From contig DPVW01000144.1 of NCBI GenBank assembly GCA_003529325.1, positions 4,716 to 14,815 of the forward strand: 10,100 bases of DNA, in the 5' to 3' direction. This DNA comes from Candidatus Latescibacterota bacterium. Lineage in GTDB: Bacteria; Latescibacterota; UBA2968; UBA8231. Below the pieces are notes generated by a model. That model did no database searches and had not been told where the DNA came from. It saw only the letters and a program-made list of their open reading frames with translations. Positions 1-8,462 of this stretch are shown here, one piece after another (position 1 is the first letter of the stretch; each line of letters begins with the position of its first letter). The translations under genes were made by a program, and so were the position numbers.

Positions 1-477
1 GCGGGCGCACCATAGAAGAGTGCCCGACGCTCCGATGACGCCGACGCACCACAGCGCCAATGATGGGGCTGTGTACGAGGCGCAGAGCAGGCCGATGAGC
101 AGGGTGATGCCACCGGAGAGCAGGCGATCAGCACCTGCCAGCGCGGTCGCCCGCCGGCGGTCTTTCGGCAATCCGGCACCTCGGCCAAGCTCCCCCAACC
201 GTCCCGGCGTCAGCAGACCAAGCCCGAAACCGGCGAACAACGATCGCAGGATATCTCCCTCCCCTACTTGTGGCATGCTGTCTCGCAGGAGTCGACGCCA
301 TTTCCACCACTGCAACAGCAGCCCAACTGGACTCAAAGCCGCCGCCAGTAGTAGCCAACGTGGCTGCGCTGACATTGCCGCGTCGAGTAGCTCGGTGGGT
401 GATGCGATCCAGCGGCCGATGCCGTAGAGCAGGGCGACGGCGACCAGCAGTCGCAGAAGAGTGACTGCCACCGGCAT
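1..477 (-). CDS. Flippase-like / lysylphosphatidylglycerol synthase transmembrane-region family protein, N-terminal part (cut by window edge)
   Basis: This is the N-terminal 159 residues of an integral inner-membrane protein; the frame is open to base 1, so the C-terminus lies outside. Hydrophobic segments lie near residues 4-22, 41-57, 77-90, 119-135 and 140-157. The recognisable signature is GLLTPGRLGELGRG at residues 87-100, followed by a conserved-looking ADR (115-118 region) before the next membrane segment. This is the pattern of the LPG_synthase_TM family (COG0392-like: MprF N-terminal domain, AglD and relatives), linked to lipid flipping or to glycosyl-lipid and aminoacyl-lipid handling. 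Family members are about 300-350 aa, so about half is visible. The ATG at 477 overlaps the stop of the upstream BMC shell gene by one base (TGATG) and has no clear Shine-Dalgarno sequence of its own, so translation is probably coupled. The family call is fairly secure; the substrate is unknown. Confidence 0.8.
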   Translation of the reverse strand, partial: MPVAVTLLRLLVAVALLYGIGRWIASPTELLDAAMSAQPRWLLLAAALSPVGLLLQWWKWRRLLRDSMPQVGEGDILRSLFAGFGLGLLTPGRLGELGRGAGLPKDRRRATALAGADRLLSGGITLLIGLLCASYTAPSLALWCVGVIGASGTLLWCAR

Positions 478-773
478 CAGGAGGCTAAAATTCGCGACAA
501 TCCGGTCGTCGGCAACAGATCGAGAAGACTCGTATGGGGCCGTGCAATGACATGCACGGCGACGACTTCGCCAACGGCACGTGCCGCCAACTCACCCGCT
601 TCGGTAGCGGCGCGCACGGCGGCTACATCACCTCGGACGAGGGTTGTCACGAGGCCCCCACCAACAATCTGCCATCCCATCATTTCAACTTCGGCTGCCT
701 TCACCATGGCATCGCCCGCTTCGATCGCGGCTACGAGACCACGGGTTTCGATCATTCCGAGGGCGTCGCCCAC
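477..773 (-). CDS. Bacterial microcompartment shell protein, single BMC domain (BMC-H, PduA/EutM/CcmK-like)
   Basis: With the GTG start at 773 the protein is 98 aa, the normal size for a hexameric shell tile, and the BMC domain spans nearly all of it. Seen directly: [16 protein letters not shown] at residues 4-19, DAMVKAA at 21-27 with the edge lysine K25, a pore-loop VGGGLVT at 37-43, VRGDV at 46-50, and HVIARPH at 74-80 with R78. K25 and R78 match the PduA edge residues K26 and R79 that make hexamer-hexamer contacts, so the tile should be able to form sheets. The GGG pore loop resembles EutM more than the GSG of PduA. The start is chosen because the conserved domain begins two residues later and GGAAAGGG (778-785) precedes it. 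In-frame starts also exist at ATG 827 and GTG 947, which would add 18 or 58 residues. No enzyme, encapsulation peptide or second shell gene is visible, so the cargo is unknown. Confidence 0.9.
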
Positions 774-777
774 AATG

Positions 778-785
778 CCCTTTCC
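778..785 (-). promoter_or_regulatory. Ribosome binding site supporting the GTG start of the BMC shell gene
   Basis: On the minus strand GGAAAGGG lies 4 bases before the GTG at 773. The spacing is short but usable. It favours the compact 98-residue start over the upstream in-frame ATG 827 and GTG 947. Confidence 0.45.
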
Positions 786-878
786 GAGTTGGGGGGAGGG
801 AGAGAGTGTCGAATTCAGCACCCGCATCCGGCTTTTCCCGGTGGCGCGTGTCCATCGCCGAACCAACTCCTCAAGCTG

Positions 879-970: not shown

Positions 971-1020
971 GCCATCGGCTTTGGCGAAAGTCACAAAGGA
1001 TCGGCCCCAATCAACTACGT

Positions 1021-1024
1021 GGAG
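1021..1024 (+). promoter_or_regulatory. Ribosome binding site deciding the start of the CxxCH barrel gene
   Basis: GGAG lies 6 bases before the ATG at 1031. This favours that ATG over the in-frame GTG at 1019, which would add only four residues (MEQK) and has no comparable site. Confidence 0.55.
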
Positions 1025-1030
1025 CAAAAG

Positions 1031-2137
1031 ATGGCCCGCCCCGAACGTTGTCTGAAGGTCCTCGTCCTACTGTCCCTCCTCTGTGTCAGCATTCGGCTCG
1101 AGGTGGCAGCCGAGCCTTATATCGCCCTTCGCGAGGGGCTAAAATGTAGCTCCTGCCATGTCAATCATACCGGCGGCGGTATGCGCAACGGATATGGGGC
1201 GCTGTTCACGCAGACCGAGATCACTCCTCTGCTTGAGGAGATGTCGGAGGCGGCTCTCGATTTTTCTGCGGATCTTGGCCCGAGTATCACGATTGGCTCC
1301 GACTTCATCCTCAGCAACGAGACGACGTCCGGTTCCGGGGATACGGACCGGCAAAACACCTTCGCTGTGGAGAGTGGCAATCTTTATGTCAACGCCCGGC
1401 TGCTGCCAGGTCGGATGTCCCTCTATTTAGATGAGATCGTCGCCCCTGGAGGCGCCGCAAGCCGTGAGGCGTTCCTGCTTCTGGAAGGACTCCCACTCTC
1501 CGGTTATGCCAAGGCGGGCCGGATGCTGCTGCCCTACGGTATCCGCATGTGGGACGACGATGCCTTCGTGCGGCGGGTGACGGGGTTCAATTTTGACAAC
1601 CAGGACCTGGGTGTGGAAGTCGGGATCGAGCCCGGCCCGATCGCTGCATCGATTGCCGTGAGCAATGGCACTCAGGGTGGTCGCGACGATGACGCCGGCA
1701 AACAGGTTTCGAGTGTCCTGACTTGGTGGCAGGGCCCCTTCGTGCTGGGTGGCTCCTTCGCTTATAACAATCCGTCAGGCGGCGATCGTCTGGTCTATGG
1801 TCCGTTCGCCTCAGCTTCCCTTGGTCCCCTGACCTGGATCGGGGAAGTCGATTGGATCGCGGAGAGTGCAGGTGGCGTCGACAACGACCAGTTCGTCGCC
1901 TTTACCAGTCTCGACTTGTGGTTGCGGCAATCCATCAATCTCCGCGCGGCCTTCGATTTTCACGACCCATACGATGATCTCAGCGAGGATGAGCGCAGTC
2001 GTGTCAGCATTGGTGTCGACGCTTTCCTCACACCTTTTCTCACCGGTAGCGTCGTCTATCGACTGCGTGACAGCATTCCTCAGGATCCAACTGGCAATGC
2101 AGACGGGTTTGGCCTGAGCCTGCATACCCATTTTTAA
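1031..2137 (+). CDS. Exported beta-barrel-like outer membrane protein with one N-terminal CxxCH haem-c motif
   Basis: The product is 368 aa. Residues 1-27 form a signal peptide (positive RPER..K, hydrophobic LVLLSLLCVSI, likely cut after VAA), so it is exported by Sec. Just after it comes KCSSCH (38-43), a canonical haem-c attachment site, then a Gly/Asn-rich segment (HTGGGMRNGYG, 46-56). The rest is an alternating polar/hydrophobic sequence rich in Gly, Asp, Ser and aromatics, with no hydrophobic helix, and it ends in Phe (LSLHTHF), the usual BamA recognition end of outer-membrane barrels. Residues about 120-200 resemble porin strands. The likely role is a porin or barrel carrying a single c-type haem near its periplasmic face, perhaps in electron transfer, but substrate and partners are not shown. 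A structural or metal role of the CxxCH without haem is possible. It is a single gene with its own promoter, convergent with ychF, 6 bp away. Confidence 0.7.
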   Translation: MARPERCLKVLVLLSLLCVSIRLEVAAEPYIALREGLKCSSCHVNHTGGGMRNGYGALFTQTEITPLLEEMSEAALDFSADLGPSITIGSDFILSNETTSGSGDTDRQNTFAVESGNLYVNARLLPGRMSLYLDEIVAPGGAASREAFLLLEGLPLSGYAKAGRMLLPYGIRMWDDDAFVRRVTGFNFDNQDLGVEVGIEPGPIAASIAVSNGTQGGRDDDAGKQVSSVLTWWQGPFVLGGSFAYNNPSGGDRLVYGPFASASLGPLTWIGEVDWIAESAGGVDNDQFVAFTSLDLWLRQSINLRAAFDFHDPYDDLSEDERSRVSIGVDAFLTPFLTGSVVYRLRDSIPQDPTGNADGFGLSLHTHF

Positions 2138-3238: not shown

Positions 3239-4989
3239 GTTTGCCTTTCCTCCTCAGCCAACAGTCCCGGTCGTGCCATGATCGTCCGCTCTCGTTTCAT
3301 CACTGCAAGACCGGGTACGGCACCCTTCGGTTTCGACACATATTTGGCCAGAGTGTAAACTACGGGAACCTTGTTTGCCGTGCGCCCCTTGCTCCAGTAC
3401 GCGGCGACCGCTGCCGCCTCTTCCAGGGTCTGTCGACTCGGCTCCTGCTTGCGCCCCTCCCGTCGCAGAATCACGTGTGATCCTGCGTATCCATGGGCGT
3501 GAAACCACACATCGTTCTGCGCCGCGAGTCGGTGCGTGACAATGTCGTTTTCACGATTGTTACGCCCCGCCCACACCGACCAGCCCGTGCTCGTCAGATA
3601 ACGCCGAGGATGAGCGCCATGGCGGCCTTCTGTACTGCCGCCAGTCCCTCCTGCTGTCTCGCCCGGCAGGGCGGCGCCCTGCCGTACCTCCACTGCGGCA
3701 CTCTGCCGCACCTCCACCCGTCGCTCCCATCTTGTCATCACTTCCTCCGCAATGGTATCCTCGTCGAGCAGAGCATCGAGGAGTTGCTCAGTCTCGAATA
3801 TCAGTTCCCGAACCCGGTGCAGGCGCGGGGGCAGAACATTGGCGCGTCGTCGCAGTTTTGCGGCGCGGCGTAACAACCGTGCCGCGTGCTGGGCGGCTGT
3901 GACACCTGGTGCCAACTCGATCTCGAGCGTCGCCTCCCCGTGCGCGTCGTGAACATCGGGGATCACCCCTTTGGTACCGGCAGCGATGTGGTCCGTAGCA
4001 GCCATGAGCGAATTGCCCACCCGATCCAGCAGGTCGACGTCGTCAGCCTCGTCCAGGTCCTTTTGCAGATCTGCCGCGCGCCGCTCAAGGACACGCCTCA
4101 CGTATTCGAGTCGGCGACGCTGGCCATTCATGTCGGCTGCCGCGTCCGCGGCGGTCTCCCCTGCGTCAGCAAGGGCGGCACAGACGGAAGGAAACTGCAG
4201 AGCTTCCATCTGGGAGTCTGGTGCTACGATCGATATTCGCGTCTGTCCCCGCGTCCAGCGGTAGACGGGACCGCCCCCAATCGACCAGAGATGTTGCGCC
4301 GTTGACCACATGGCTGCCGACACCAGCTCTGTGACGCTGTCGGTGTGTGTGGTGGGACAGACACCGCTGTCGGTGCAGATCCGAGCGACGAGATGCCGAT
4401 CTGCCCCGGAGAGAATGGTACGCACCGCGTCTTTTACCGCTCTATCCTGGGCTCGGAGTCGATCGAAAAAAACCTCCGGCGTGTCGCGACCTGGCACGAG
4501 TCCACCCACCGGTGTTGCCGGTGCTTCATATGGCGTTCCGTGTGCGGGGGCGCGCCGATCCTTACCCGTCGCCCACACCCCCAAAATGCGGCCATGGCTT
4601 TCGGATACGAGTACGGCGTGATAGCGTGGCGGAATCAGGACGAGGTGAAACAGAGCGTAGGTGAGATTTGACTCGGCGTCGCGTCGGCTCAGACGGAGTG
4701 TGAGCACACGCTCCCCGGGGACCGGCAGAATTCGCTCGATGCGCGCCCCCTGAAGATACCGCTCACGACCATCGCCGCCGGCCACCGACCCGCCAGGCGT
4801 CAGACGCAGAGAGCCGGCGGGACCGAAGGCCAGTCGCAAGTGGTTCGCCGTTGAATCTCCTTCCGGCTGCGTTTCGAGAAGCAGATCCAGACCCGTTTCG
4901 TCGGCGTGGGCGCCACGGACGTGGTAGCCCTCATGATGGGCAGCCAGTTCGCCGGCGAACACCCCAATGGTGAGAGAATCAAGAATCAC
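3235..4989 (-). CDS. Divergent NFACT-family protein (RqcH/NEMF/Tae2/Fbp-like)
   Basis: The product is 584 aa. The C-terminal NFACT-R domain (about 463-575) is clear: GRNNREND (475-482), AGSHVILRR (502-510), TLEEAAAVAAYWSK (521-534), VPVVYT (541-546) and KPKGAVPG (553-560). Residues 1-240 fit NFACT-N plus a helix-hairpin-helix part but are much diverged. The usual DR pair appears as GER (92-94), and the segment normally like ELMGRHSNI reads LIPPRYHAV (118-126). Residues 285-425 are Arg/Glu-rich helices, the coiled-coil arm. A Gly-rich linker with a small duplication (VEVRQ twice, 425-437) precedes NFACT-R. RqcH binds 50S subunits with stalled nascent chains and adds Ala tails, so rescue of stalled ribosomes is the natural guess. 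The changed N-terminal residues make Ala-tailing uncertain. Start is GTG 4989, overlapping the upstream stop by 4 bases; its Shine-Dalgarno-like GGGA abuts the start, so coupling is likely. Confidence 0.85.
   Translation of the reverse strand: MILDSLTIGVFAGELAAHHEGYHVRGAHADETGLDLLLETQPEGDSTANHLRLAFGPAGSLRLTPGGSVAGGDGRERYLQGARIERILPVPGERVLTLRLSRRDAESNLTYALFHLVLIPPRYHAVLVSESHGRILGVWATGKDRRAPAHGTPYEAPATPVGGLVPGRDTPEVFFDRLRAQDRAVKDAVRTILSGADRHLVARICTDSGVCPTTHTDSVTELVSAAMWSTAQHLWSIGGGPVYRWTRGQTRISIVAPDSQMEALQFPSVCAALADAGETAADAAADMNGQRRRLEYVRRVLERRAADLQKDLDEADDVDLLDRVGNSLMAATDHIAAGTKGVIPDVHDAHGEATLEIELAPGVTAAQHAARLLRRAAKLRRRANVLPPRLHRVRELIFETEQLLDALLDEDTIAEEVMTRWERRVEVRQSAAVEVRQGAALPGETAGGTGGSTEGRHGAHPRRYLTSTGWSVWAGRNNRENDIVTHRLAAQNDVWFHAHGYAGSHVILRREGRKQEPSRQTLEEAAAVAAYWSKGRTANKVPVVYTLAKYVSKPKGAVPGLAVMKRERTIMARPGLLAEEERQT
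3244..3254 (-). promoter_or_regulatory. Strong ribosome binding site of ychF inside the end of the NFACT gene
   Basis: On the minus strand AGGAGGAAAGG ends 5 bases before the GTG start of ychF. It supports that start and suggests ychF can be initiated independently as well as by coupling. Confidence 0.7.
3664..3717. repeat. Perfect 9-bp hairpin next to a 24-bp tandem duplication within the NFACT gene
   Basis: CGGCAGGGC (3664-3672) and its exact complement GCCCTGCCG (3676-3684) are separated by three bases. Overlapping it, CTGCCGTACCTCCAC (3679-3693) recurs at 3703-3717 with one mismatch, a 24-bp period. The duplication keeps the frame and encodes the repeated VEVRQ in the linker before NFACT-R, so it looks like local expansion of a tolerant linker rather than a mobile element. 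Confidence 0.6.
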
Positions 4990-5474: not shown

Positions 5475-8263
5475 GTGGCGAGCCTGTCCAGACTCGAGGT
5501 CAGTTTCTGCAGGCTGACACCGTACTCCTGCTGACGCTGCCGTTCTTTCTCGACCACTGCTGGCGGCGCTTTCTTGAGGAAGCCCTCGTTGGCCAGCTTC
5601 TTGTCGAGGTTCGTGATGAGCCACTGTAGTTTGTCGATCTCCTTGGTCAGGCGCTTTGCCTCGATATCCGGGTCGATGAGCCCCGCCAGAGGAATGTAGA
5701 GCTCGATCTCCCCCACAATGGCGCTCCCAGAGGATGGCGGCTGTGGCACACCGACGCCGATGTCGACGGACTCGGCGCCGACCAGCGCCTGCAGGTAGTG
5801 GCGGTGCGCGGTGAGTCGATTGGCAGATGGTTCCGAGCCGGCGGAAAGGACGAGCTGCACTTTTTTGCCCTGTGGAACATTCAGTTCGCTACGCACCGTG
5901 CGTGCCGCAGAGATGACGTCCTGCAGAAAAACCATGTCCGCCTCGGCTTCTGCATCGATGGCCTCTTCATCGACCAACGGCCATGAGGCGATCATGAGAC
6001 AGTCCGGGCGCTGCACGGAGGCAGCGAAGGGAAGGCTTTGCCAGATCTCTTCCGTGAGGAATGGCATAATCGGATGCATGAGGCGGAGGGCCTGTTCGAG
6101 TACGTGGACGAGAACTCCCTGTACAAGGCTGCGTTCGGTGGTCGAACCTGACAACAGTCGCGGCTTCGCCAGTTCGATGTACCAGTCGCAGTAATCGCGC
6201 CAGAGAAAGTCGTGCAGCGCACGGGTCACTTCACTGAAGCGGAAGCCCTCCTGGGTTTCATCGATGGTGCGGATCGTCTGCGCCAGACGGCTCAGAATCC
6301 ATCGATCGGCCAGGACACCGACGCCGGCACCAGAACCGGTCACTGGCGCCACCTCCCCTTCAAGATTCATCATCACATAACGGGCGGCATTCCACAGCTT
6401 GTTGCAGAAGTTACGACCAGCCTCGGCACTCAGGCTAGCTTGCACGACATTGTCCTCGATGTCGGCGTCGAAACGCACGTCCTGAGTCGTCCCGCACTGC
6501 GCCAAAAGGCTGAAACGAGTGGCGTCAGCACCATACAGACGCACCAGATCGAGAGGGTTGAGCCCCGTTCCCAGGCTCTTGCTCATCCGCTTCCCATCCT
6601 TGGTCAGAATCGTCGGATGGATGAGGACCTGCTTGAAGGGAATTTCATCGATAAATTCCGCTGCTGTCATCACCATACGCAACACCCACAGATACAGGAT
6701 GTCGCGGCCGGTGATCATCAGGTCGGTGGGATGGAAGTAGTCGAGATCCGACCTCTTGTCCGGCCAACCCAGAGTGGCAAAGGGCCACAGCGCCGAGGAG
6801 AACCAGGTATCCAGGACGTCGGGATCCTGCACCAGGTGGCTGCCGCCGCAGTCCGGACAGGCAGCCGGTTGGCTCGCGGCGACAATCGGGCGGGCGCCAG
6901 CCTCGACACTCACTCGAAAAGCGCCGTCCGCCAGGGCCTGCTCTTTCTCGTATCCACCAAAGGGTTCCAGTCCCGCTCCCGAGCAGTCGACGCAATACCA
7001 CGCAGGGATGCGGTGGCCCCACCAGATCTGCCTCGACAATGCCCAATCTCGGATGTTGTCCAGCCACTCCAGAGCATATCCCCGATATCGATCCGGTGTG
7101 TAGTGGACCTGGTCAGCACCTGCGGTGCCCTGCAATTTCGGCCGGACTTTGTCGGCGAGTTCCTCCATGTTCATGAACCACTGCTCCATAGGTAGTGGTT
7201 CGATGACGGTGCCACACTTGTCATGGTGAGGTACCGCATGTTCGTGGTCGTCGACCTGCAGTAGCACCCCGGCTTCCTCTAGGGCGGCCAGCACCTGCTT
7301 GCGGCACTCGTAGCGGTCCTGTCCCTGCCACTTTCCTGCGTTCTCTGTCATGATCCCGTCGAAGCCGATGACGACGATCTGCGCCAGATCGTGGCGGGCT
7401 CCGACTTCGTAGTCATTGGGGTCATGTGCAGGTGTCACCTTCACCGCCCCCGAGCCCATCTCAGGATCGGCGTACTCGTCGGCGACGATGGGAATGGGTC
7501 GCTCCATGAGCGGCAGCAGGACCCGTTCACCCACGGCGCTCTGCCAGCGAGCGTCCCCAGGGTGCACGGCAACACCGGTGTCACCAAGCATCGTTTCGGG
7601 CCGAGTCGTAGCGACGGTGACGTCAGGGCCACCATCCAGGCCTTGGTAGCTGATGTGCCAGAGCTTTCCCTGGGTCAACCGTTCTTCGGTTTCCAGGTCG
7701 GAGATCACGGTGCCGCATTTCGGACACCAATTGATCATGCGGGTGCCACGGTAGATCCAGCCATGGTCGTGGAAACGGCCAAAGGCCTTCATCACGGCGC
7801 TGACATAGGCATCGTCGAGAGTGAAGCGTGAGCGGTCCCAGTCATAGCTGCAGCCCAGCTTGCGGAGCTGGTCGTAGATGGCGTTTCCGTATGTCTCCCG
7901 CCACTCCCAGATACGTTCGATGAGGCCCTCGCGGCCCACATCGTACCGGGTTTTGCCCTCTTCGCGCGCGAGCTTTTCTTCGACCTTCATCTGCGTTGCG
8001 ATACCGGCGTGGTCGGTACCGGGCAGGCAGAGGGTTTCGTAGCCCTGCATGCGCTTGCGTCGGATCACATTGTCATGGATGGCGTGCTGGACGGCGTGGC
8101 CCATGTGCAACTCACCGGTCACATTGGGCGGGGGAATGGTGATGCAGTAAGACTGTCGCGCCGGGTTCGGGCGGGCACGGAAGTAGCCGGCGGACTCCCA
8201 GTGTTTGTACCAGGTGGTCTCGCAGTGCTCGGGGTCGTATTTCGTCGGTAATTCGGTTGTCAT
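5471..8263 (-). CDS. valS: Valyl-tRNA synthetase
   Basis: This cytoplasmic class I synthetase charges tRNA-Val. The product is 930 aa from ATG 8263, a normal length. PPPNVTGELHMGH (44-56) holds the HIGH motif and KRMSKS (558-563) the KMSKS motif. The CP1 editing insertion lies between about 185 and 405 (ATTRPETMLGDTG 218-230; PAHDPNDYEVG 278-288). Cys pairs at WCPKCG (179-184), CVDC (424-427) and CPDC (469-472) suggest zinc sites. DVLDTWFSS (482-490) and the anticodon-binding region follow. The C-terminal arm, about 860-930, is the Lys/Glu-rich coiled coil typical of ValRS. An in-frame ATG at 8290 would add nine residues, but it would leave only a 12-base leader from the predicted promoter, so 8263 is preferred. 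It heads a four-gene operon. Confidence 0.97.
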   Translation of the reverse strand: MTTELPTKYDPEHCETTWYKHWESAGYFRARPNPARQSYCITIPPPNVTGELHMGHAVQHAIHDNVIRRKRMQGYETLCLPGTDHAGIATQMKVEEKLAREEGKTRYDVGREGLIERIWEWRETYGNAIYDQLRKLGCSYDWDRSRFTLDDAYVSAVMKAFGRFHDHGWIYRGTRMINWCPKCGTVISDLETEERLTQGKLWHISYQGLDGGPDVTVATTRPETMLGDTGVAVHPGDARWQSAVGERVLLPLMERPIPIVADEYADPEMGSGAVKVTPAHDPNDYEVGARHDLAQIVVIGFDGIMTENAGKWQGQDRYECRKQVLAALEEAGVLLQVDDHEHAVPHHDKCGTVIEPLPMEQWFMNMEELADKVRPKLQGTAGADQVHYTPDRYRGYALEWLDNIRDWALSRQIWWGHRIPAWYCVDCSGAGLEPFGGYEKEQALADGAFRVSVEAGARPIVAASQPAACPDCGGSHLVQDPDVLDTWFSSALWPFATLGWPDKRSDLDYFHPTDLMITGRDILYLWVLRMVMTAAEFIDEIPFKQVLIHPTILTKDGKRMSKSLGTGLNPLDLVRLYGADATRFSLLAQCGTTQDVRFDADIEDNVVQASLSAEAGRNFCNKLWNAARYVMMNLEGEVAPVTGSGAGVGVLADRWILSRLAQTIRTIDETQEGFRFSEVTRALHDFLWRDYCDWYIELAKPRLLSGSTTERSLVQGVLVHVLEQALRLMHPIMPFLTEEIWQSLPFAASVQRPDCLMIASWPLVDEEAIDAEAEADMVFLQDVISAARTVRSELNVPQGKKVQLVLSAGSEPSANRLTAHRHYLQALVGAESVDIGVGVPQPPSSGSAIVGEIELYIPLAGLIDPDIEAKRLTKEIDKLQWLITNLDKKLANEGFLKKAPPAVVEKERQRQQEYGVSLQKLTSSLDRLAT

Positions 8264-8308
8264 CCAGATCTCAGAAATAGCTGTAACCATGTGTCAGATA
8301 AGGACTTC

Positions 8309-8337
8309 AATATACGGGGGGTGGTGCCAGCAGACAA
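8309..8337 (-). promoter_or_regulatory. Sigma70-type promoter of the valS operon
   Basis: On the minus strand TTGTCT (rc of 8332-8337) and TATATT (rc of 8309-8314) are 17 bases apart. Transcription would start near 8302, giving a leader of about 39 bases to ATG 8263. No T-box or attenuator-like structure fits in so short a leader. Confidence 0.6.
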
Positions 8338-8375
8338 TCGTCTCCTCTGTCGTGTGGATGGCGGCGAGTACTGTT

Positions 8376-8404
8376 TTGCTGACAGCGACACCCTCTTTTA
8401 TACT
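8376..8404 (+). promoter_or_regulatory. Sigma70-type promoter of murQ
   Basis: TTGCTG (8376-8381) and TATACT (8399-8404) are separated by the optimal 17 bases. Transcription would start near 8411, about 52 bases before the murQ ATG. It lies back to back with the valS promoter. Confidence 0.6.
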
Positions 8405-8462
8405 GGTGTAGCTGTACTCCGAGTTGTCTCAACACGACAAACCTAAAAAATAGGCAATCGCA

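Follow-up and report, generated by a model that had tools for sequence, protein, structure and literature searches.

A likely satellite microcompartment locus with an embedded lipid-flippase-like gene in a Latescibacterota bacterium

Why would the gene for a single shell tile of a bacterial microcompartment (BMC) overlap the gene for a lipid-handling membrane protein? We met this arrangement at the left end of a 10,100-nucleotide stretch of DNA from a Candidatus Latescibacterota bacterium (the window), which corresponds to positions 4716-14815 of contig C152 in a draft genome of 5.53 Mb and 502 contigs (completeness 85, contamination 5). An initial annotation, made from the window alone, had read a BMC-H tile gene overlapping an LPG_synthase_TM (PF03706) gene by one base and had proposed either the edge of a BMC locus extending to the left or a lone tile that acts with a membrane protein and belongs to no classical compartment. 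The features that bear on the question are the following, in window coordinates unless another piece is named.

477..773, minus strand: BMC-H shell tile gene, 98 amino acids, GTG start at 773, TGA stop at 479-477, assigned from its PF00936 match and translation.
475..479, minus strand: TGATG junction, read from the sequence; base 477 is common to the tile stop and the flippase ATG (477-475).
1..477, minus strand: 5' part (159 amino acids) of the flippase-like gene, whose remainder lies left of the window (C152, L009 3964-4431), past an assembly gap.
774..810, minus strand: tile-gene leader with GGAAAGG, which by eye resembles a ribosome site.
L009 3210-3974 (C152), minus strand: class II aldolase gene, 254 amino acids, PF00596 at 152.8 bits over the whole domain.

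The one-base overlap was borne out by the sequence and by the PF00936 and PF03706 scores. The tile is one complete PF00936 domain (model positions 1-75 of 75; 89.7 bits, cut-off 24.5), and its closest natural PDB chain is the H. ochraceum BMC-H 5DJB (E 2.4e-31). By homology to 5DJB and PduA, it is predicted to form hexagons. The 159 flippase residues in the window match PF03706 with 48.2 bits (cut-off 33.4), and the orthologue in relative G018 does so with 49.9 bits. We then looked at the family, that is, the window's own genome and 24 relatives, uncultured bacteria mostly labelled Latescibacterota. An intact tile gene stands before the flippase gene in 16 of the 22 family genomes that carry the latter (G000-G005, G008, G009, G010, G014, and G018-G023), so the pair is not a product of chance; conservation across genomes, a check that the annotation had proposed, was thus upheld. 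The exact one-base overlap occurs in 4/4 loci of the genus (our own and L073-L075) and in that genus only. At the 12 other tile-flippase loci, the nearest candidate flippase start lies between -6 and +33 bases from the last base of the tile stop codon; counted by nearest candidate start, tile and flippase genes overlap in 9 of the 16 adjoining pairs.

What lies to the left of base 1? Extending the contig in that direction brought up an enzyme of the signature type, the class II aldolase, and no further shell gene: a scan of C152 gave one PF00936 match, which is the window tile, and zero PF03319 matches. The idea of a BMC locus extending to the left therefore survives in part, as a BMC context with an aldolase, but no full locus follows beyond base 1. 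The description of the tile as lone has to be dropped, since tile, flippase, and aldolase genes follow one another across the gap and a main BMC locus lies on another contig. Further left of the aldolase, C152 codes for a TPR-parvulin protein, a ThiT-like transporter, and an aminotransferase-like protein; we dropped the TPR-parvulin neighbour as a lead because TPR matches were too numerous to trace.

The gap itself is a run of N at C152 4432-4715, just left of window base 1 and within the flippase gene, whose frame ends at 3964. Some 30-odd nearly identical bases are repeated on its two sides, and a database protein of 303 amino acids (P0152), identical to the window part at 156 of 159 positions, spans it and continues into the piece on the left. 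For these reasons the run is most likely a scaffold artefact.

Past the gap, the aldolase ATG (3974-3972) overlaps the flippase gene by 11 bases on hand reading, as it does in three other loci of the genus; across the family, an overlap between a candidate aldolase start and the flippase stop is seen in 18 of the 21 readable loci. Residues E83, H102, H104, and H165, which we take to be the class II metal site, are invariant in 8/8 aligned rows. Among the 25 of 29 NCBIfam matches listed for the aldolase, none exceeded its own cut-off. The closest aldolases among the matches listed are 11 named records at 66-91% identity, 7 of them labelled Latescibacterota or Latescibacteria and the others bearing Gemmatimonadota-type names or simply "bacterium." Every family aldolase whose end could be read has a variable linker followed by a helix-like C-terminal tail, such as LVEQITKQVVDQMR or LVERITEEVLRQLR. 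Similar tails (for example, IVEEITRKVLAALQK) occur on many aldolases from outside the family and from other phyla; the remainder differ or are cut by a contig end. Judged from sequence resemblance and, by eye, amphipathicity, the tail is likely encapsulation-like, and we infer that it packs the enzyme.

The three genes hold together over most of the family. With our own genome included, the flippase was found in 22 genomes (21 of 24 relatives) and the aldolase in 23 (22 of 24 relatives), and the flippase gene directly precedes the aldolase gene in 22 of the 23 aldolase-bearing genomes (22/22 of those with a flippase). A contig end truncates the aldolase gene of G001, and the flippase gene of G017 is interrupted by a contig break, its final part lying next to the aldolase gene on a different contig. 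The one exception is G006, where the tile is followed by the aldolase and a flippase search gave no match at E 0.001. G012 and G015 (75% and 84% complete) yielded neither flippase nor aldolase and stand outside the 22 and 23. The cassette tile is absent in G007, G011, G013, G017, and G024, and in G016 it has been reduced to an in-frame C-terminal remnant.

Where, then, is the rest of the shell? The genome has 14 PF00936 matches, of which 12 are on contig C119, one is the window tile, and one is a second orphan tile on C126. C119 carries all four PF03319 (BMC-P) matches as well, three of them consecutive at 18892-19723. This main locus also codes for an aldehyde dehydrogenase (AldDH), PduL, two DHDPS-family proteins, an FAD oxidoreductase, and BMC-H and two-domain tiles. 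In the single-contig relative G018, about 1.8 Mb separate the cassette (near 2.39 Mb) from the main locus (near 4.18 Mb).

The main locus has a peculiarity of its own, a frame with four complete BMC domains (C119, L010 11999-13249) beside which lies a two-domain protein (13159-13746). The pair is found in 15/15 main loci in which the region is intact; a further one, L112, is truncated at the end of its contig. Of 7997 scored database entries, 710 matched the four-domain protein at E<=0.001, and those listed (120) are mostly 370-396 amino acids long; its AF2 model has a pLDDT of 90.7. Among the PDB matches listed for it, none has more than two BMC domains and the engineered tandem 6NER ranks first, and a search of the open-access literature on multi-BMC-domain proteins found nothing on a four-domain tile. 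One copy each of the four-domain and two-domain tiles is predicted to make a hexagon, an asymmetric one. Also in the main locus, L010 13748-14248 codes for a 166-amino-acid protein that has a cysteine-rich part, a C terminus resembling an encapsulation tail, and no Pfam or NCBIfam match.

The second orphan BMC-H (C126, L012 7863-8676) carries a C-terminal tail like LPVTRLRQLARKTPG..LQGRQISRANKDQLL, our own copy being read across an N gap, and a tail of this kind is present in 13/13 other second-orphan loci read (L094-L106). By eye, it resembles what we take to be a Rho-N/SAP-type nucleic-acid-binding motif. The N run in this gene (L012, about 8094-8406), like that at L009 4432-4715, is flanked by overlapping sequence; both are probably scaffold artefacts inside genes.

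The link between cassette and main locus came from the tile itself. In a tile tree, the main-locus BMC-H proteins of G007 and G013 group with 17 cassette tiles (19 rows versus 52 others, support 97/96, two very long rows aside), on a short alignment of few columns that drew a long-branch warning. Direct searching found a tile orthologue with 66-70% identity in the main loci of G007, G011, G013, and G017, other full tiles reaching at most 55%; the same search found none in G024 and, apart from the remnant, none in G016. In the first four genomes, the orthologue stands directly upstream of AldDH. All belong to genus g5, so that the orthologue is beside AldDH in 4/4 genomes of that genus with a main locus; the fifth genome, G015, showed none. 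Since the orthologous tile is upstream of AldDH in these four, it appears to tie the satellite and the main locus to one compartment, and this placement is the strongest evidence that both loci serve it. It also speaks against the idea that tile and membrane protein act together without any compartment, an idea further weakened by G024 and G016, which have lost the cassette tile but keep flippase and aldolase, and by G006, which has the other two genes but in which no flippase was found.

We therefore return to the opening question with a reading to which we assign a probability of about 0.84: the window holds the end of a satellite BMC locus of tile, flippase, and aldolase genes, and the tile and the aldolase probably become part of the compartment encoded on C119, with its AldDH, PduL, and vertex proteins. 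Tile, flippase, and aldolase would be read from one message, and the C-terminal helix would draw the aldolase into the shell. The enzyme would split a deoxysugar phosphate (fuculose- or rhamnulose-1-phosphate type, a putative substrate) into DHAP and an aldehyde; within the shell, AldDH and PduL would convert the aldehyde to an acyl phosphate. The tile, with its glycine-rich loop QIVGGG, presumably the pore position, would add facet area or a pore for the pathway.

What does the membrane protein do in such a locus? PF03706 is the sole listed domain of P0152, and MprF's C-terminal aminoacyl-phosphatidylglycerol synthase domain was not found in it. Its AF2 model (pLDDT 88.3) was run through Foldseek, and the MprF structures 7DUW, 9J8Q, and 7F47 were the only PDB matches at E<=0.001 (for 7DUW, E 4.8e-4 and a TM-score of 0.65 by query length); a flippase profile had no match among PDB sequences. 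MprF of P. aeruginosa is reported to be a promiscuous scramblase, and stand-alone domains such as YbhN are mentioned alongside it (PMC11980842). The protein here has the profile and fold of MprF and YbhN-type proteins in common with them; it differs from MprF in missing the synthase domain and in adjoining BMC genes. Movement of lipid between leaflets is its predicted function. Flippase dN/dS (Nei-Gojobori) was 0.12-0.23 in 10 pairs, with dS saturated in the two most distant, and pairs in which one genome is tile-less gave 0.138 (G018-G024) and 0.150 (G016-G021). Given these low values in pairs with G024 and G016, the gene appears to be maintained for its own sake, with purifying selection acting also in genomes that have lost the tile. 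The protein is most likely a co-expressed, ancillary, stand-alone inner-membrane lipid flippase or scramblase and is probably independent of the tile, though its place beside the aldolase in 22/23 genomes may point to a closer link than "ancillary" conveys.

The alternative that survives best makes the flippase gene a passenger between tile and aldolase, with an unrelated job and kept in place only because its reading is coupled to that of the aldolase. It is the least conserved of the three: between G018 and G009, the flippase, which diverges fastest, is 56% identical, the tile 77%, and the aldolase 85% (aldolase rows of G002 and G003, out of frame, were left out of the pairwise identity and dN/dS comparison). 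It was not found in G006, which keeps tile and aldolase, and the stretches that hold its relatives in G048 and G056 contain no BMC genes. A passenger might, however, have moved or vanished more often than a gene that stays beside the aldolase in 22/23 genomes over deep divergence, with dN/dS of 0.12-0.23. We regard this alternative as possible but do not favour it.

Could the membrane protein instead be a physical partner of the compartment, docking the tile or shell at the inner membrane or feeding it, with the overlap keeping both in step? The adjoining of tile and flippase in 16/22 genomes, the overlap in 9/16 pairs, and a likely BMC cargo gene beside the flippase in 22/22 are consistent with this idea. 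We nonetheless consider it unlikely, for in G024 and G016 purifying selection has kept the flippase although the tile is missing, the tile orthologue of g5 belongs to the main locus, no flippase was found in G006 beside its tile and aldolase, and the open-access literature searched ties no BMC to a PF03706 protein. A seeming proof of contact, the 363-amino-acid protein P0156 with both PF00936 and PF03706, was rejected: it is the sole two-domain protein of this kind in the database, its BMC match ends at model position 63 of 75 with an unlike stretch after it, and with the domain cut short it is probably a frameshift across neighbouring genes. A bolder version, which strikes us as very unlikely, would make the satellite operon a membrane-side entry port, in which a lipid-linked or lipid-like substrate is collected or flipped at the inner membrane by the MprF-like protein, aldolase and tile from the one message nucleate there, and a compartment of asymmetric four-plus-two-domain tiles forms around the aldolase at the membrane.

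Four genomes, G004, G006, G015, and G019, have only one or two PF00936 matches each, and no main locus was found in them; G004 and G006 also gave zero BMC-P matches in a search that did not cover G015-G024. G004 and G006 are 86% complete, and the completeness figures predict about three main-locus absences among 24, against four seen, so the missing main loci are not decisive, yet they allow for use of the tile where no complete shell exists. That tile and aldolase alone form sheets, tubes, or a small compartment separate from the shell of the main locus, as their presence in G004 and G006 might suggest, is very unlikely given that near match to prediction and the g5 tile orthologue in the main locus.

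Is a satellite locus of this make-up known? Satellite BMC loci are distal, have one or more shell genes of one domain type (PF00936 or PF03319), insufficient for a shell, and are accompanied by a full locus elsewhere (PMC4207490, PMC8217296). Here, C152 has one shell-domain type, and a nonsatellite locus lies on C119. With the aldolase on C152, the locus counts as "satellite-like" by the definition of Axen (no other BMC-related genes) and as satellite by that of Sutter (enzymes allowed). The cassette adds to such loci a PF03706 gene between tile and aldolase, and it lies near ychF in most mapped family loci. The PF00596 aldolase is common to PVM, PVM-like, and GRM5 (fucose/rhamnose) loci, and in other families of the phylum it occurs with BMC-P and BMC-H. 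Unlike the PVM type, in which aldolase, BMC-P, and BMC-H share one locus, our own genome has aldolase and BMC-P on different contigs; in the family, the aldolase and the two tiles that would belong to such a set are dispersed over the genome, and the enzymes of the main locus are different ones (DHDPS-family, FAD oxidoreductase). FRAG BMCs (Sutter 2021) have in common with this genome shell genes at several places (here three), a BMC-P triplet, and occurrence in candidate phyla. FRAG types are assigned by shell-protein grouping, however, whereas the likeness here rests on gene places and the triplet, and the available text of Sutter 2021 does not mention tiles with more than two BMC domains, such as the four-domain tile here. 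Tile genes have been relocated likewise in the CcmK satellites of beta-carboxysomes, which are said to add regulatory plasticity; no cargo enzyme or membrane protein is named with them in the available text (PMC5853843), whereas the cassette has both.

As for the aldolase, a PF00596 member with a C-terminal encapsulation peptide is described from ACI loci, the same family occurring in PVM and GRM5 (PMC8217296). For the Latescibacteria, a fucose/rhamnose BMC was inferred by Youssef et al. 2015 (PMC4454575), and an SPU-like locus with a class II aldolase was given by Axen et al. 2014 (PMC4207490); the available text of the Poribacteria BMC paper (PMC3909097) has no aldolase. The open-access literature searched held neither the trio nor a BMC tied to a PF03706 protein or to membrane anchoring, although supplementary tables might list them. 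Taken as a satellite BMC locus that carries a lipid-flippase-like gene within it, the cassette is ordinary in kind and, as far as our searches show, new in make-up.

Outside the family, we retrieved 14 aldolase loci from 14 of the 35 genomes of other families, with BMC-P in 14/14, a BMC-H-type tile in 10/14, all three in 10, and a flippase in 0/14. A further 69 non-family aldolase loci from named genomes (L124-L192) included 40 with a BMC match and 0 with a flippase match; some of these are short, at least one is probably also among the 14, and the scan took the best 80 of at least 560 confirmed places. From these counts, the aldolase is often found with shells, and a flippase beside it was seen in this family only. 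In other families of the phylum, the PVM-like set comprises a tile, three BMC-P genes, an AldDH-like gene (by reading), and the aldolase. Against a cassette-tile profile, the first tile of the other families scored 151-159 (8 loci); within the family, single-domain main-locus tiles scored 110-124 and the g5 main-locus orthologues 174-176. In the tree, the family's second orphan tile falls with the second tile of those other families. The simplest reading is that a PVM-like locus of tile, second tile, and aldolase broke up in this family; aldolase and one tile would have ended up next to ychF, in company with the flippase gene.

We also considered whether the cassette is an old neighbour of ychF. 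This was rejected: the 13-19-kb ychF stretches of the sister-family genomes G025, G035, G038, and G046 lack cassette genes, tblastn recovering ychF in 4/4 and tile, flippase, or aldolase in none at E 0.001. The flippase relatives in G048 and G056 were likewise discarded as cassette kin, their 17-19-kb stretches having no tile or aldolase matches. To the right of the tile, on various strands, the window codes for a CxxCH protein of 372 amino acids, YchF, an NFACT-like and an OmpA-like protein, ValS, MurQ, and an aldo-keto reductase, named from reading the translations, with a family scan on the 372-amino-acid protein only. The gene for that protein (window 1019-2137; CSSCH motif; no Pfam or NCBIfam match) is divergent to the tile gene, and a relative of it stands before the cassette in 8 of 22 mapped loci, our own included.

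In this family one can test how the locus of a compartment might disperse while remaining in use, with the same tile gene standing in a satellite, standing in the main locus, reduced to a remnant, or absent. A membrane protein beside a likely cargo enzyme throughout the family provides a concrete gene for testing membrane partners of microcompartments. The four-domain wall protein, if paired with its two-domain neighbour, would force an asymmetric hexagon.
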